Source: Candidatus Saccharimonadota bacterium (GTDB lineage Bacteria; Patescibacteriota; Saccharimonadia; Saccharimonadales; Saccharimonadaceae). From it: 44,540 bases of DNA. Under the pieces are notes generated by a model. It saw nothing but the letters and a program-made list of their open reading frames with translations, ran no database searches and was not told the origin of the DNA. Each line of letters starts with the position of its first letter. The first letter of the stretch is position 1. The translations under genes and the position numbers were made by a program. Where the stretch lies: assembly GCA_017510075.1 (NCBI GenBank), contig JAFWNY010000030.1, forward strand, positions 1-44,540, read 5' to 3'. Shown here piece after piece: positions 11,962 through 44,418 of this stretch.

Positions 11962-12119
11962 TGGTAGGGATGCCAGGACTCGCATCTTTAGATTCGAGTC
12001 CCCAGCTAATAAGACGCCCCTGGAGGCGCCAAAACCAAAATGGTAGGGATGCCAGGACTCGCATCTTTAGATTCGAGTCCCCAGCTAATAAGACGCCCCT
12101 GGAGGCGCCAAAACCAAAA
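11962..12119 (-). repeat. Tandem array: two 79-bp units each ending in a copy of the tRNA-Ile 3' end
   Basis: Two apparently identical 79-bp units (11962-12040, 12041-12119) directly abut the CCA end of tRNA-Ile at 12120. Read on the tRNA strand, each unit has a T-rich start, a hairpin GGCGCC-TCCAGG-GGCGTC, the core GGACTCGAATCTAAAGATG, then a 21-nt copy of the tRNA 3' end from C56 in the T loop to CCA. The core and the copied CGAGTCC form a 7-bp stem with a further inner ATCT/AGAT pairing. The same core occurs next to tRNA-Arg at 42916. The 3'-end copies lack the rest of a tRNA, so they are not tRNA genes. Confidence 0.9.
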
Positions 12120-12196
12120 TGGTAGGGATGCCAGGACTCGAACCTGGGACACTGCGTGTATAAGACGCATGCTCTAACCAACTGAGCTACATCCCC
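12120..12196 (-). tRNA. tRNA-Ile (anticodon UAU), CCA encoded
   Basis: A 77-nt cloverleaf with all arms: acceptor GGGGATG with CATCCCT (one G-U), D arm GCTC/GAGC, anticodon stem TGCGT/ACGCA around the loop CTTATAC, and T arm CCAGG-TTCGAGT-CCTGG, discriminator A and encoded CCA. The anticodon UAU reads AUA. Most bacteria instead use a CAU tRNA with lysidine for AUA. The gene is followed directly by two copies of its own 3' end. Confidence 0.93.
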
Positions 12197-15899: not shown

Positions 15900-15976
15900 T
15901 GGTTGTGGGGGTTGGATTTGAACCAACGACCTTTTGGTTATGAGCCAAACGAGCTACCAGGCTGCTCTACCCCACG
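15900..15976 (-). tRNA. Initiator tRNA-fMet (anticodon CAU), CCA encoded
   Basis: A 77-nt cloverleaf with anticodon loop CTCATAA on a TTTGG/CCAAA stem, T arm TTGG-TTCAAAT-CCAA type, and encoded CCA. The first acceptor pair is a C1-A72 mismatch, the bacterial initiator hallmark, and the D arm (AGAGCAGCCTGGTAGCTCG) closely matches other bacterial fMet tRNAs. The anticodon stem has fewer G-C pairs than the classic three-G-C initiator. Confidence 0.93.
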
Positions 15977-20689: not shown

Positions 20690-21067
20690 ATGAAAAATTA
20701 CGAACTCACCGTCGTGTTTCATCCTGATCTAGAGATGAATCTCGACCCCGCCCTCGACAAGGTGAAGAAAATCATCAAAGCCAACGGCGGCGAAATTATC
20801 AAAGAAGAGAACGAGGGCAAGAAACGTCTTAGTTACGACATTGATGGTCAAGAATTCGGCATCTACGACTACTTCACCATTTCACTTCCGCCGGAATCCG
20901 TGTCCAAAATTGACAGCACCCTCAATATCACCGACGAGGTCATCCGCCACATGGTGGTAAAAGAAGACCCTCGCAAGCTCAAGGCAGAGTCTCTCCAAAA
21001 AGAGGAGACGGAAGGTGAAGGGCCTACCGATGATGCTGCCGAATTAAACGAAACAGAAGGAGAATAA
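20690..21067 (+). CDS. rpsF: 30S ribosomal protein S6
   Basis: A 125-residue protein with the S6 fold: KNYELTVVFHPDLEM at the N-terminus, EGKKRLSYDIDGQEFGIYDYFTI in the middle and a RHMVVKED end to the folded domain. S6 binds 16S rRNA together with S18, encoded two genes downstream. The last 25 residues form an acidic tail (EETEGEGPTDDAAELNE), as in many S6 proteins. AAAGGAG lies seven bases before ATG. First gene of rpsF-ssb-rpsR-efp-tlyA, the standard bacterial order for the first three. Confidence 0.95.
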   Translation: MKNYELTVVFHPDLEMNLDPALDKVKKIIKANGGEIIKEENEGKKRLSYDIDGQEFGIYDYFTISLPPESVSKIDSTLNITDEVIRHMVVKEDPRKLKAESLQKEETEGEGPTDDAAELNETEGE

Positions 21068-35266: not shown

Positions 35267-36205
35267 TCACTTCGTCTCCGAATGAAACTTCTCATGTATT
35301 TCCCGAAGATGCGCATCCGTCACATGCGTATATATTTGCGTAGTCGATATATCCGCGTGCCCCAGCATCGACTGCACCGCCCGAATATCGGCCCCATTCA
35401 TCAATAAATCCGTCGCAAATGAATGGCGCAAAGTATGCGGCGACACGTGCTTCGTAATCCCCGCGAGCCGCGCATATTTTTCTACGATCCTCTCCACGCT
35501 CCGCGCCGTCATCCGCCGGTAATCACCCGACGTATCCACCGCCTGCGTATTCCGCGAATTATTAAGAAACAGCGCCGGCAGGGAATCAGTCCTAGCATCC
35601 AAGTAGTCCTGCACCCTGTCCGCACAAGCCTCCGAGATAAATATCGGCCTATCCTTCGACCCCTTCCCTCGCACCATAAATTCCCGCCGCTCCAAGTTGA
35701 TCGAATCCCGATTCAGCCCCACCAGTTCAGACACACGCAGTCCCCCAGAATACAGTAGCTCAATAATCGCCCGATCTCTCAGCCCCGACTCGGTAGAAGT
35801 GTCAATTTGCTCCAGCATGTCCTCCACTTCATCGTAGTGCAAGAAAGTCACTTGTTTCCGTGTCACCTTAGGCAGTTCCACGAGGGAGGGATCCAGCGAC
35901 TTGATGTCTCGTCTCGCCAAATATTTCAAAAACCCCCGGAGCGCTATCAAATGATACGCCTGCGTAATCACCTTCAAATCCTCCCCGCCCTCATCCGAGC
36001 CGTATCTATTCAACCGAATCCGATACTTCCTGAGCACTTCTTTTGTGACATCTTGCGGTTTCAACTCCTCTTTGCCCGACACCTCCAGCGCAATCTCCGC
36101 GAACCTCTCAAGATACAACCGATAATTATCTACCGTCTTCTTACTTCGTCCCGCCTCAATCTCAAGATGCTCCAAGAAATCATTAATCAAATCGTATATG
36201 TCCAT
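35267..36205 (-). CDS. Tyrosine recombinase XerC/XerD family
   Basis: A 312-residue site-specific recombinase. The N-terminal SAM-like DNA-binding domain (INDFLEHLEIEAGRSKKTVDNYRLYLERF) and catalytic domain are complete: Arg in GGLRVSELVGL, Lys in GKGSKDRP, HxLR in HTLRHSFATDL, and GHADISTTQIYTH with the nucleophile Tyr. This is the size of chromosome-dimer resolvases; in reduced genomes a single Xer often suffices. No dif site was located. ATG 36205 follows TATAAT (36217-36212) by six bases. The gene abuts the giant pilin gene with no gap, and its upstream region is a large inverted repeat. Confidence 0.92.
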   Translation of the reverse strand: MDIYDLINDFLEHLEIEAGRSKKTVDNYRLYLERFAEIALEVSGKEELKPQDVTKEVLRKYRIRLNRYGSDEGGEDLKVITQAYHLIALRGFLKYLARRDIKSLDPSLVELPKVTRKQVTFLHYDEVEDMLEQIDTSTESGLRDRAIIELLYSGGLRVSELVGLNRDSINLERREFMVRGKGSKDRPIFISEACADRVQDYLDARTDSLPALFLNNSRNTQAVDTSGDYRRMTARSVERIVEKYARLAGITKHVSPHTLRHSFATDLLMNGADIRAVQSMLGHADISTTQIYTHVTDAHLREIHEKFHSETK

Positions 36206-36220
36206 ACTGTAATTATAGCA

Positions 36221-36366
36221 CGAGGACACGAGCCGTCGCAATCGAGGGACATAAAGAAAAAATTCACCTCCAGGTGGATTTTTTCGCCGAAGGGGCGAAG
36301 CGAAGTGATATAATCGTCAGATTATCACTTCGCGAAGCTCCCGAGATGCGACGGCTCGTGTCCTCG
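36221..36366. repeat. 146-bp nested inverted repeat between the Xer gene and ackA
   Basis: Perfect 20-bp outer arms at 36221-36240 and 36347-36366. Inside are, in order, a bidirectional hairpin (36256-36285), a TTCGCC/GGCGAA hairpin (36283-36299) and an 11-bp inverted repeat GCGAAGTGATA/TATCACTTCGC (36300-36310 and 36323-36333). The left outer arm begins four bases before the Xer -10 box, so it occupies the -35 region. Confidence 0.9.
36256..36285. terminator. Bidirectional intrinsic terminator downstream of ackA
   Basis: CACCT-CC-AGGTG flanked by A and T tracts on both sides (GAAAAAATT and GATTTTTTC), so either strand yields a hairpin followed by a T-run. It lies inside the 146-bp inverted repeat. 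Confidence 0.75.
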
Positions 36367-41448: not shown

Positions 41449-42921
41449 ATGCAAAACCAAAAACAGCAATCAGGGAACACCCCACCAAGCGGCGCCCCAT
41501 CCGGCACCCCCGGCGGTCAAAGCTCCAGCAGTGTCTCTCATAGCGGCGCTACCGAGCTCGCCAGCGACGCCACCCTTTCCGACCAAACCTACTCCAGCAC
41601 CGGCTCTGCCGAAAACGCCCTCCTAGTCAAAGGCGCCACCATTACTCTAGAGAACCCCACAATCACCAAATCCGGCGACGACAGCGGCGACAATTCCGAT
41701 TTCTACGGCACCAACGCCGCAGTTTTTGCCTACGACGACGCAACCTTAAACATCACCGGCGGCACCATCACCACTGACGGCTCGCACGCCAACGCCGTCT
41801 TCGCTTACGGCTCCGGTACCATCAATATCACTGGCACAAAAATTACCACCAGTTCCAACAACTCCGGCGGAGTCATGGTTACCGGCGGCGGCACGCTAAA
41901 CGCCACCAACCTAACCGTCGAAACTTCCGGCAACTCCTCCGCGCCAATCCGCAGCGACCGCGGCGGCGGCACCCTCACCGTCACCGGCGGCAGCTACACT
42001 TCTAGCGGCACCGGCAGCCCCGCCATTTATTCCACCGCTGACATCATCGTCAAGAACGCCAAGCTTACCGCCACCGCGTCCGAGGGCATCGTCATCGAAG
42101 GCCTCAACAGCGTCACTCTCGAAGGCACCACTGTCACCGACACCAATAACACCCTCAACGGCAATTCCGAAACCTACAAAAACATCTTTATTTATCAATC
42201 CATGAGCGGCGACGCCGAAACCGGCACCGGTACCTTTACCGCCAAAAACAGCACCTTCGTCACCAACCAAGGCGACCATTTCTTCATCACCAATACCACC
42301 GCCGTCATCAATCTCGAAGGCAACACATTTACAAACAACGACTCCACCGGCGCCTTCCTCCGCGCCCAGTCCGGCAAATGGGGCACTTCCGGCAGTAATG
42401 GCGGCGACGTCACACTCAATGCCACCTCGCAAGAGATCATCGGCGACATTATCATTGACAGCATCTCCTCGCTCGACCTGAACCTGACCGGAAGCTACTA
42501 CAAAGGCACCATCGAAAACGACGGGACCGTCAACCTGACGCTAGACGCTAGCTCCATCGTCGTTTTGACTGGCGACTCCTACCTGACTTCCCTAGACAAT
42601 GCCACGTCCGACAACTCCAACATCTACGCCAACGGCTACAAACTCTACGTCGCCGGCACAGAAGTCTCCATCAACCAAAGCGAAGCCCCTGCCTCATTCC
42701 TGACCGGCGCCACCGAGACCATCATCAGCGAAGAAACCATCATCAGCGAAACGCAAGATGTCCCCAGCAACGACACAGGCATCAACATCCCAGTTCTAAT
42801 CTCTTGCATCATCGGCGGAATCTTAGTTGCCGGCGCAATCGCCGCAATCATCATCAAGAAAAAACACCACCCCAAACAAATACCGCCCGAAACTACCTCT
42901 GGCGATCAACAAAAATGGTGA
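41449..42921 (+). CDS. Beta-helix repeat surface protein with C-terminal membrane anchor
   Basis: A 490-residue protein. After an unstructured Gln/Ser/Pro/Gly-rich start, residues about 50-420 consist of short beta-strand repeats of the parallel beta-helix kind (ITGGTITTDG, NITGTKITTSS, TVTGGSYTSS, and so on). A Ser/Glu linker leads to one C-terminal helix (IPVLISCIIGGILVAGAIAAIII) and a basic tail. No N-terminal signal peptide is visible, although the topology requires export; AAGGAG supports the 41449 start. Composition and repeats resemble Firmicutes and Actinobacteria surface proteins, so horizontal acquisition is plausible. The last Trp codon and stop are made by the first bases of the tRNA-Arg repeat array. 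Confidence 0.72.
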   Translation: MQNQKQQSGNTPPSGAPSGTPGGQSSSSVSHSGATELASDATLSDQTYSSTGSAENALLVKGATITLENPTITKSGDDSGDNSDFYGTNAAVFAYDDATLNITGGTITTDGSHANAVFAYGSGTINITGTKITTSSNNSGGVMVTGGGTLNATNLTVETSGNSSAPIRSDRGGGTLTVTGGSYTSSGTGSPAIYSTADIIVKNAKLTATASEGIVIEGLNSVTLEGTTVTDTNNTLNGNSETYKNIFIYQSMSGDAETGTGTFTAKNSTFVTNQGDHFFITNTTAVINLEGNTFTNNDSTGAFLRAQSGKWGTSGSNGGDVTLNATSQEIIGDIIIDSISSLDLNLTGSYYKGTIENDGTVNLTLDASSIVVLTGDSYLTSLDNATSDNSNIYANGYKLYVAGTEVSINQSEAPASFLTGATETIISEETIISETQDVPSNDTGINIPVLISCIIGGILVAGAIAAIIIKKKHHPKQIPPETTSGDQQKW

Positions 42922-43071
42922 CCTGGGAGCGACTTGCATCTTTAGATTCGAGTCCAAGCTCATTCAACCCCCTCTGGAATAGCTTAACAAAAATGGTGAC
43001 CCGGGAGCGACTCGCATCTTTAGATTCGAGTCCAAACTCATTCAACCCCCTCTGGAACAGCTTAACAAAAA
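42916..43071 (-). repeat. Tandem array: two 78-bp units each ending in a copy of the tRNA-Arg 3' end
   Basis: Units at 42916-42993 and 42994-43071 directly abut the CCA end of tRNA-Arg at 43072. Read on the tRNA strand, each unit has a T-rich start, a hairpin AAGCT(A/G)TTC ... GAAT-G-AG(C/T)TT with CAGAGGGGG in its loop, the core GGACTCGAATCTAAAGATG and a 21-nt copy of the tRNA 3' end from C56. The units differ at a few bases; two differences (A/G and C/T in the hairpin arms) keep pairing through G-U wobbles. Copies of the 3' end carry one change each. The core is identical to the one beside tRNA-Ile. Confidence 0.92.
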
Positions 43072-43147
43072 TGGTGACCTGGGAGCGACTCGAACGCTCA
43101 ACCTTTTCCTTAGGACGGAACTGCTCTATCCATTGAGCTACCAGGCC
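43072..43147 (-). tRNA. tRNA-Arg (anticodon CCU), CCA encoded
   Basis: A 76-nt cloverleaf: acceptor GGCCTGG with CCAGGTC (one G-U), D arm GCTC/GAGC, anticodon loop GTCCTAA giving CCU on a five-base stem whose outermost pair is mismatched, T arm GAGCG-TTCGAGT-CGCTC and encoded CCA. It reads AGG. It is followed directly by two copies of its own 3' end. Confidence 0.92.
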
Positions 43148-43173
43148 AATCAAATATATGCTATAATTATATC

Positions 43174-44190
43174 ATGAATCTGTTAAAGAAGAAAGATACT
43201 AAAAAAACCGAGCAGGAAAGAGTCGAGGAGCGCCGCGAAGAGGTCCTCGCCACCGGCCGCAAATTCAAATATCCCCTCCAGTGGACCAAGCACCGCATCG
43301 TTATTAACACCATTCTTATATCAGTTATTGTGCTGGCGATGGTCGTCATTGGCGGTTGGCTCGCGCTTTATCGTCTAAACATGACAGATGACCTTCTCTT
43401 CAGAGTAACTAAAGTCATCCCACTTCCAGTTGCAGTAGTCGATTCCGAAAATGTCCGCTTTTCAGATTATCTCACATTTTACCGCAGCAGCATCACCTCT
43501 ATCGAGCGCCAATCTGGCAGCCAGTTTGACGAAAGCTCCGCCGATCAAATCAAAGCCGAGTACAAGCGCTCCGCCCTCACTGAGTCAGAAGATTACACCT
43601 ATGCCGTCAAGCTAGCCAAATCTCAAGATATCACCGTCACCGATGAAGAAGTCGCTGCTGAGTTCGACCGTCACCTCAAGATTGGTGGTATCGACCGCAG
43701 CGAAGAAGCTTTTGTCAAAATCATCGAGGATAATTTTAATCTCACCAAAGACGAATACGAACGCATGCTCTACCTCACCCTCATCAAGGCCAAAGTTGAG
43801 ATGGCCATCGACGACAAAGCCAACAAAACTGCCGCCGAGGTAGAGAAGCTACTCAAAGATTCGGGTTACGACTACGCCGCAGTTGCCGACCAGCTGGGCG
43901 ACAGTATCATCTATGAGGAGACTGGCGGATTGGTGGATAGTAAGAACTTAGACGGCGGCCGCGCCACCGAAGCCATGAAGCTAGAGCCCGGCCAGAGCAG
44001 CGACAAGTTCGTCTCCATGAACGGCGACGGCTACTATTTCGTCAAGCTCATCAACAAGACCGACACCGAAGTCAACTTCGTCTCCATCAAAGTCCCCTTC
44101 ACCGAATTTGATTCTCGCATGTCATCTCTCCGCGAAGACGGCAAAATCTCCGAGTACATCACCATCGAGTCTCCCTCCGTTGACGAATAG
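43174..44190 (+). CDS. Membrane-anchored SurA/PrsA-like foldase (parvulin-type)
   Basis: A 338-residue protein. A basic cytoplasmic tail of about 45 residues (LLKKKDTKKTEQERVEERREE) precedes one helix near 46-70 (IVINTILISVIVLAMVVIGGWLAL), and the rest is extracellular. Residues about 85-215 are helical with a SurA-N-like pattern (VAVVDSENVRFSDYLTFYRS, ITVTDEEVAAEFDRHLK, LTKDEYERMLYLTLIKAKVE). A C-terminal parvulin-like domain follows (DYAAVADQLGD, GGLVDSKNLDGGRATEAMKLEPGQSSDKFVSMNGDGYYFVKL). It should help fold exported proteins, of which this window has many. TATAAT (43162-43167) is six bases before ATG: leaderless. Confidence 0.8.
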   Translation: MNLLKKKDTKKTEQERVEERREEVLATGRKFKYPLQWTKHRIVINTILISVIVLAMVVIGGWLALYRLNMTDDLLFRVTKVIPLPVAVVDSENVRFSDYLTFYRSSITSIERQSGSQFDESSADQIKAEYKRSALTESEDYTYAVKLAKSQDITVTDEEVAAEFDRHLKIGGIDRSEEAFVKIIEDNFNLTKDEYERMLYLTLIKAKVEMAIDDKANKTAAEVEKLLKDSGYDYAAVADQLGDSIIYEETGGLVDSKNLDGGRATEAMKLEPGQSSDKFVSMNGDGYYFVKLINKTDTEVNFVSIKVPFTEFDSRMSSLREDGKISEYITIESPSVDE

Positions 44191-44261: not shown

Positions 44262-44267
44262 AGTAAT

Positions 44268-44418
44268 TGCTACAATTAATCATATTTATCAAAAGTAGTC
44301 GATATTTATTATCGTGCATACTAATAAAACATAAAATGGCATCGTGAGGATACCACGTTTTATTAGTATGACTACTGATAAATATGATTGGTTGTAGCAC
44401 CTTGCGGTGCCATTTTTA
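44268..44418 (+). ncRNA. Candidate structured RNA with a three-way junction
   Basis: A 24-bp outer helix pairs 44268-44291 with 44376-44399; the only two non-Watson-Crick positions are U-G wobbles on the plus strand. A 5-bp helix follows (GTAGT 44295-44299 with ACTAC 44371-44375), then a junction with a side hairpin CGATA-TTTAT-TATCG (44300-44314) and a perfect 14-bp inner helix (44317-44330 with 44357-44370). The apical part can pair TGGCATC with GATACCA around GTGAG. A terminator ends the unit. No protein frame fits. I recognise no Rfam family: it lacks the motifs of RNase P RNA, tmRNA and SRP RNA; a divergent 6S RNA is possible but unproven. Confidence 0.6.
44397..44418 (+). terminator. 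Intrinsic terminator of the candidate ncRNA
   Basis: GCACC (44397-44401) and GGTGC (44406-44410) with loop TTGC, followed by CATTTTTATT. Its first three bases are shared with the outer RNA helix. Confidence 0.7.

Follow-up and report, generated by a model that had tools for sequence, protein, structure and literature searches.

The tRNA-linked repeats (TLRs) of E. coli, first described in 1978, lie immediately downstream of a tRNA or rRNA gene as one to five repeats and end in 18–19 bp identical to the 3′ end of that upstream gene (PMC8144298). Most are without known function; for the rrn TLRs, transcription by terminator read-through and binding to Hfq and CsrA have been reported (PMC8144298). 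In the E. coli tyrT and arg TLRs, we found copies that match the tRNA 3′ end at 18–19 of 21 positions, and the 5′ strand of the repeat is approximately the reverse complement of that end (GGGGAAGGGTGAGAACCTTC vs. GGGGAAGGATTCGAACCTTC). The short units described here share with E. coli TLRs (tyrT RtT, Rfam RF00391) their placement directly behind a tRNA gene, a repeat whose terminal segment copies the tRNA 3′ end, and a closing stem formed by this copy and an inverted copy. However, the E. coli copy begins at about A58 (19 nt), while that of the short units begins at C56 (21 nt), and, unlike E. coli TLRs, the short units are single hairpins of 60–79 bp in which an arm pairs with T-loop positions 56–63. 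This link to TLRs is an addition to the original prediction for this locus.

The window, by which we mean the whole 44,540-nt stretch that was analyzed, carries two arrays of short units (Table 1). Directly downstream of tRNA-Arg(CCU), on the minus strand, lie two 78-bp units, each composed of a 39-nt linker, the arm GACTCG, the middle AATCTAAAGATG, and then CGAGTCGCTCCC(G/A)GGTCACCA, the copy of C56–A76 of the tRNA. Within the middle of the first unit, an inner 3-bp stem (ATC/GAT) encloses the loop TAAA, and an A·G mismatch adjoins C56. The tRNA-Ile(UAU) array is built in the same way from two 79-bp units identical to each other, and the linker of its first unit holds a terminator-like GCGCCTCCAGGGGCG. 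The 19-mer GGACTCGAATCTAAAGATG occurs four times exactly in the window, twice in each array, where 0.01 occurrences would be expected by chance. The original prediction had noted the two units at tRNA-Arg with their copied 3′ ends, the 19-mer common to both arrays, and an fMet gene with a normal terminator in place of an array, and all three observations hold; inspection of the sequence downstream of the fMet gene revealed no unit. Other features surround the Arg array. A 490-aa ORF on the opposite strand (41449–42921, plus strand) extends into the last Arg unit and has its stop codon within the complement of the copied tRNA end, and a long imperfect inverted repeat (TTGCTACAATTAATCATATTTATCA.. 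/ ..TGATAAATATGATTGGTTGTAGCA) followed by GGGGATAAAAA repeats lies at 44262–44400. In some relatives (loci L099, L108, L113, and L114, compared with 43072–44190 of the window), tRNA-Arg(CCU) is flipped with respect to the neighboring conserved gene.

Table 1. Positions in the window of the tRNA genes and the units behind them.
Feature	Position	Strand	Basis or remark
tRNA-Arg(CCU), array host gene	43072..43147	-	ARAGORN; Rfam tRNA, 57.5 bits
Arg unit 1, whole, 78 bp	42994-43071	-	Sequence
Arg unit 1, linker, 39 nt	43033..43071	-	Sequence; TTCCAG..GGGG L1-like hairpin inside
Arg unit 1, arm GACTCG	43027..43032	-	Sequence, pairing; reverse complement of C56-C61
Arg unit 1, middle AATCTAAAGATG	43015..43026	-	Sequence, pairing
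Arg unit 1, copy of tRNA-Arg C56-A76	42994..43014	-	Sequence comparison; 20/21
Arg unit 2, whole, 78 bp	42916-42993	-	Sequence
Arg unit 2, linker	42955..42993	-	Sequence; 37/39 identical to unit 1 linker
Arg unit 2, arm GACTCG	42949..42954	-	Sequence, pairing
Arg unit 2, middle AATCTAAAGATG	42937..42948	-	Sequence
Arg unit 2, copy of C56-A76	42916..42936	-	Sequence comparison; 20/21, A in place of G57
tRNA-Ile(UAU), host gene of sister array	12120..12196	-	ARAGORN; Rfam tRNA
Ile unit 1	12041..12119	-	Linker, arm GACTCG, middle AATCTAAAGATG, C56-A76 copy 21/21
Ile unit 2	11962..12040	-	Sequence; identical to Ile unit 1
tRNA-Met(CAU) (fMet), internal negative	15900..15976	-	ARAGORN; ordinary terminator downstream

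What had been read as a constant 19-nt core is a composite: a G, the 6-nt arm GACTCG, and the 12-nt middle AATCTAAAGATG, where the arm is the reverse complement of C56–C61 in the adjacent tRNA copy. A search of the same genome provided a fifth match to the core, which differs by a single change and sits on a different contig, behind tRNA-Asn(GUU) (GGGCTCGAATCTAAAGATG, then CGAGCCCGGCCCCGG..). The change matches the T loop of tRNA-Asn itself, CGAGCC; therefore, the core resolves into a 12-nt middle and an arm that varies to fit each tRNA. Each unit is a hairpin: the arm leads into an inner 3-bp stem capped by a small loop, a single base immediately before C56 is unpaired or mismatched, and the copy of C56–A76 of its own tRNA makes up the 3′ strand. 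Across the genus, the unpaired base at the junction was G in 72 and T in 37 of 110 units, terminal loops varied, and many linkers held a terminator ahead of the hairpin. Middles are common to different tRNAs. For example, AATCTAAAGATG was found with the arms GACTCG, GGCTCG, and GAGTCG, each of which fits its own tRNA.

The pairing between arm and T loop is specific to each unit. Arm and own T loop formed Watson–Crick pairs in 638 of 660 cells, compared with 557 ± 5 when T loops were permuted between units. Because the covariance model R1, with which units were sought, rewards pairing, the test was redone on units found by the 3′ end repeat alone: 14 of these 19 copies had an arm perfectly matched to their own hexamer, while foreign hexamers matched at 6/6 in 0.9%. 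The complementarity spans positions 56–63; it is significant at 62 and 63 and falls to chance from 64 on. The inner stem also covaries (316/330 vs. 196 ± 8.5 in the control), with the variants ACC/GGT, ATC/GAT, TTC/GAA, TCA/TGA, and CTC/GAG. Mismatches in the arm are mostly A·C, not G·U. A few arms mismatch their own tRNA (L145, L194, and L185), and two Gln(CUG) genes (L175 and L195) bear a unit that ends in the 3′ end of Gln(UUG).

To survey the rest of the genome, stretches around its tRNA genes were scanned for duplicates of the tRNA 3′ end, a phage-like tRNA array on contig C16 being left aside. This survey, which the original prediction had proposed as a check, provided one unit at tRNA-Asn and one at tRNA-Ser(UGA), the latter with a 20/21 copy from C56 and the middle ATCTTCGATG. 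Related forms occur at Glu(UUC) and at both Gly(UCC) genes, where the inverted strand covers the acceptor side too. Likewise, in Glu(UUC) and Gly(UCC/CCC) units at loci L034, L014, L025, L095, and L126, the inverted strand spans the acceptor stem and CCA. The array on C16 (G000:C16:85151-87623) is dense, with about 27 divergent tRNA genes, and is phage-like in character.

The covariance-model search, the other check proposed, was conducted with R1, which was built from 15 units, several of them found by the 3′ copy alone, and which favors short units of types a and b. It matched 69 of 128 genomes of the genus, all of them metagenome-assembled genomes (MAGs) and a partial sample of the genus. 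None of 12 genomes from other genera of the family was matched, and matches in the wider phylum were weak only. The short form is thus restricted to this genus, as far as it has been sampled. Separately, the exact type-a 20-mer was found in 20 stretches of DNA among 84,980 species genomes, all from Ca. Saccharibacteria MAGs; judged by their titles, almost all are isolates from the ruminant gut, and the rest bear run names only. Approximately 90 loci were retrieved, and they contained 110 units. With regard to the location of TLRs, 98 of the 110 lie 12–58 nt behind a matching upstream 3′ end, and in three of the exceptions the tRNA is 7–11 kb upstream; with regard to 3′ identity, the copy is 21 nt long and matches at 21/21 in 91 of those 98 units (20/21 in the Arg units of the window). 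The hosts are tRNA genes for Ile, Arg, Asn, Lys, Gln, Glu, Gly, Leu, Pro, Ser, Trp, and Tyr. It had been allowed that the two arrays could be a local duplication with later conversion of the tRNA end; this does not stand, given the spread of units over many isoacceptors in 69 of the 128 genus genomes. Nor does the tight size constraint suggested by periods of 78 and 79 hold up, given linkers of 12–58 nt and a long unit of about 130 nt.

Units turn over rapidly. At the orthologous Ile and Arg loci, compared across 118 genomes, a unit is absent from many relatives, and others carry units of a different kind. On a quick tree of one gene adjoining tRNA-Arg, covering 35 species and loci that are not a random sample, the presence or absence of a unit at tRNA-Arg required 9 changes under a strict label (a detectable copy), with 13 of 200 shuffles as low, and 11 changes under a loose label, with 233 of 500 shuffles as low. 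Turnover at this gene is therefore near random on the tree. Arrays can also be mixed: behind tRNA-Ile of genome G077 (L058), a long unit, a TTCTTCGAAT unit, and a AATCTAAAGATG unit stand in a row, and the last of the three is common to the window genome. Among tandem pairs of the same type, 7 of 14 are perfect duplicates. In diverged pairs, linkers differ (15/23, 19/29, and 19/25), while arm, middle, and copy are nearly identical. This pattern fits repeated addition from related sources and fits selection alike.

Some arrays hold the unit of about 130 nt, whose closing stem is again a tRNA copy paired with its own inverted copy. These long units were found behind tRNA genes in several Patescibacteria families (L058, L060, L102, L187, L203, and L270-L289) and fold into a four-helix junction with a GAACC..GGTTC hairpin and a GUAGGAG/GACGCCC internal loop. 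In an alignment of 19 sequences fitted to the model, 36 of 39 pairs showed compensatory double changes, and the covariation score was 0.717 vs. 0.181 when shuffled and 0.10–0.14 in slid controls. No Rfam family matched the long units at threshold; Rfam RtT matched one Patescibacteria long unit (L272) at 22.5 bits, below threshold. Conversely, a model built solely from Patescibacteria long units (R3) matched all four E. coli tyr TLRs in register, with E values of 3e-5 to 1.4e-4, and provided no other match in six E. coli regions. R1 provided no match in the six E. coli tRNA regions tested, and R3 provided none in the window. The long form resembles the E. coli RtT/TLRs and obeys the same closing-stem rule. 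In the genome of the window, two matches to the long-unit model (G000:C10:7843-7959 and 21006-21067; L274 and L281) had no adjoining tRNA that we found.

To find enzymes that might move the units, we surveyed 32 genomes, 16 rich in units and 16 without R1 matches, and none of four candidate enzyme families tracked the units. The Y1 transposase (PF01797) was over the cut-off in 0 of 32 genomes, the reverse transcriptase RVT_1 (PF00078) did not follow unit content, and the counts of extra tyrosine integrases (PF00589) and large serine recombinases (PF07508) did not track the units. The original prediction had offered template switching at a tRNA primer as one mechanism. Because many unit-rich genomes have no RVT_1, such switching by a reverse transcriptase finds no support, and a retroelement or tRNA-primed copy was rejected on the same grounds (PF00078 is absent from unit-rich G123, G095, G132, G010, G135, G119, G133, G116, and G143). 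Its other mechanism, recombination at the T loop, stays a candidate, but no dedicated recombinase tracks the units. Its broader claim, that one element type has been joined to different tRNA 3′ ends exactly at C56, is supported and points to one shared process.

Several other sources and memberships were considered and rejected. Like the units, REP/RAYT elements are short, dispersed, imperfect palindromes, but the units are strictly tRNA-linked, and none of the 32 genomes tested has a member of the Y1 (REP) tyrosine transposase family. In viral contigs, the core had 5 matches and the type-a hairpin 21, none in a tRNA/CCA context. Splicing or a T-loop intron was set aside since the proximal tRNAs are intact and allowing introns exposed no hidden tRNA. 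A pairing similar to P1 of group I introns (RACC with GGUU) fits type-b middles only, not TTCTTCGAAT, and an antisense-terminator reading fits only linkers with CAAAAAG.

We consider the arrays best filed as short TLR-like repeats that originate at the DNA level at the T loop and are near-neutral or selfish, a reading to which we would give about an even chance (roughly 0.5). We infer that units form and spread at the DNA level at the conserved T loop GGTTCGA. A process acting there would add a linker and hairpin and duplicate C56–A76, the matching 8-nt arm being re-templated or selected during the addition. Candidates for this process include fold-back (inverted) duplication in replication and recombination via a single-stranded hairpin. 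Tandem copies would then come from unequal exchange, and the units may act as repeats that are selfish or nearly neutral and keep the tRNA intact. Plain fold-back copying does not explain the conserved middles (TTCTTCGAAT and RACCTTCGGTG), nor the G or T kept before C56.

A functional RNA is possible, though we lean against it. Terminator read-through, as reported for the E. coli TLRs RrA/RrB/RrF, would provide a small RNA that, like the tRNA, ends in CCA, with hairpin and 3′ end under selection. Covariation is strong in both short and long units, and the hairpin and copy that stay constant while linkers drift in diverged tandem units could also mean function. Since the long form has RNA-like covariation, the class may plausibly have a role as RNA. 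The terminator between tRNA and hairpin in many units lowers the chance of such a role but does not remove it, because the E. coli rrn TLRs are themselves transcribed by terminator read-through. However, about half of the genus genomes are without short units, turnover at tRNA-Arg is near random, and A·C predominates over G·U among arm mismatches. Slightly more doubtful is a tentative reading in which TLRs constitute one widespread mobile structured family whose site is set by pairing with the tRNA 3′ end. The long RNA-like forms of Patescibacteria and E. coli and the miniature hairpins of this genus would then be products of a guide-complementary insertion that has not been described.

A duplicated tRNA 3′ end is the typical signature of integration (PMC9897764), and the units share with attR and other integrative-element fragments a direct repeat of the 3′ end behind an intact tRNA. 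They could accordingly be attachment-site remnants of tRNA-integrating elements that were later deleted, and elements with a large serine recombinase are indeed present at tRNA ends in the genus. In three apparent orphan units, the tRNA is 7–11 kb upstream and an inserted element lies in between (G132:C8 47444-56250 at Leu(GAG), G112:C7 at Arg(UCG), and G067:C20 at Gln(CUG); L264-L269). In these elements, the gene for a large serine recombinase directly adjoins the tRNA CCA, but the repeated tRNA segment amounts to just its last 8–9 nt, and the unit sits outside the element, past its far end; therefore, the units are neither ends nor remnants of these elements, and an integrated phage or element as their source was rejected. 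Elsewhere (G143:C31), a serine recombinase gene lies just past the copy of a unit. Furthermore, where units sit behind a matching 3′ end, the 12–58-nt linkers hold no gene, integrase, or other element, which led us to reject attR membership; all units are tiny, with no size spectrum, PF00589 and PF07508 counts do not follow them, and an added hairpin arm matched to each tRNA would be left unexplained. We regard this origin as improbable. Similarly long odds apply to a folded single-strand recombination site of the integron attC type, or the attP type of phages that use Xer, with a Xer-like recombinase as the agent. The units share with such sites an imperfect hairpin that has, at the junction, an unpaired base and a variable loop; the junction at C56 is exact, the 8-nt paired region is the size of a crossover region, and a Xer-like recombinase is present in all genomes tested (one gene lies in the window at 35267–36241). 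However, that gene is equally present in genomes without units, no gene cassette or dedicated integrase was found, and the partner strand of the hairpin is a tRNA copy.

The short units are best regarded as a new, compact, and fast-changing version of TLRs, located at many tRNA genes in about half of the species of the genus. A single structural rule, in which a hairpin is closed by a duplicate of the 3′ end of the host tRNA itself, thus applies in at least two bacterial phyla. The genus offers a natural series of gains and losses, covarying arms, and covariance models, and the origin and function of TLRs are therefore testable.
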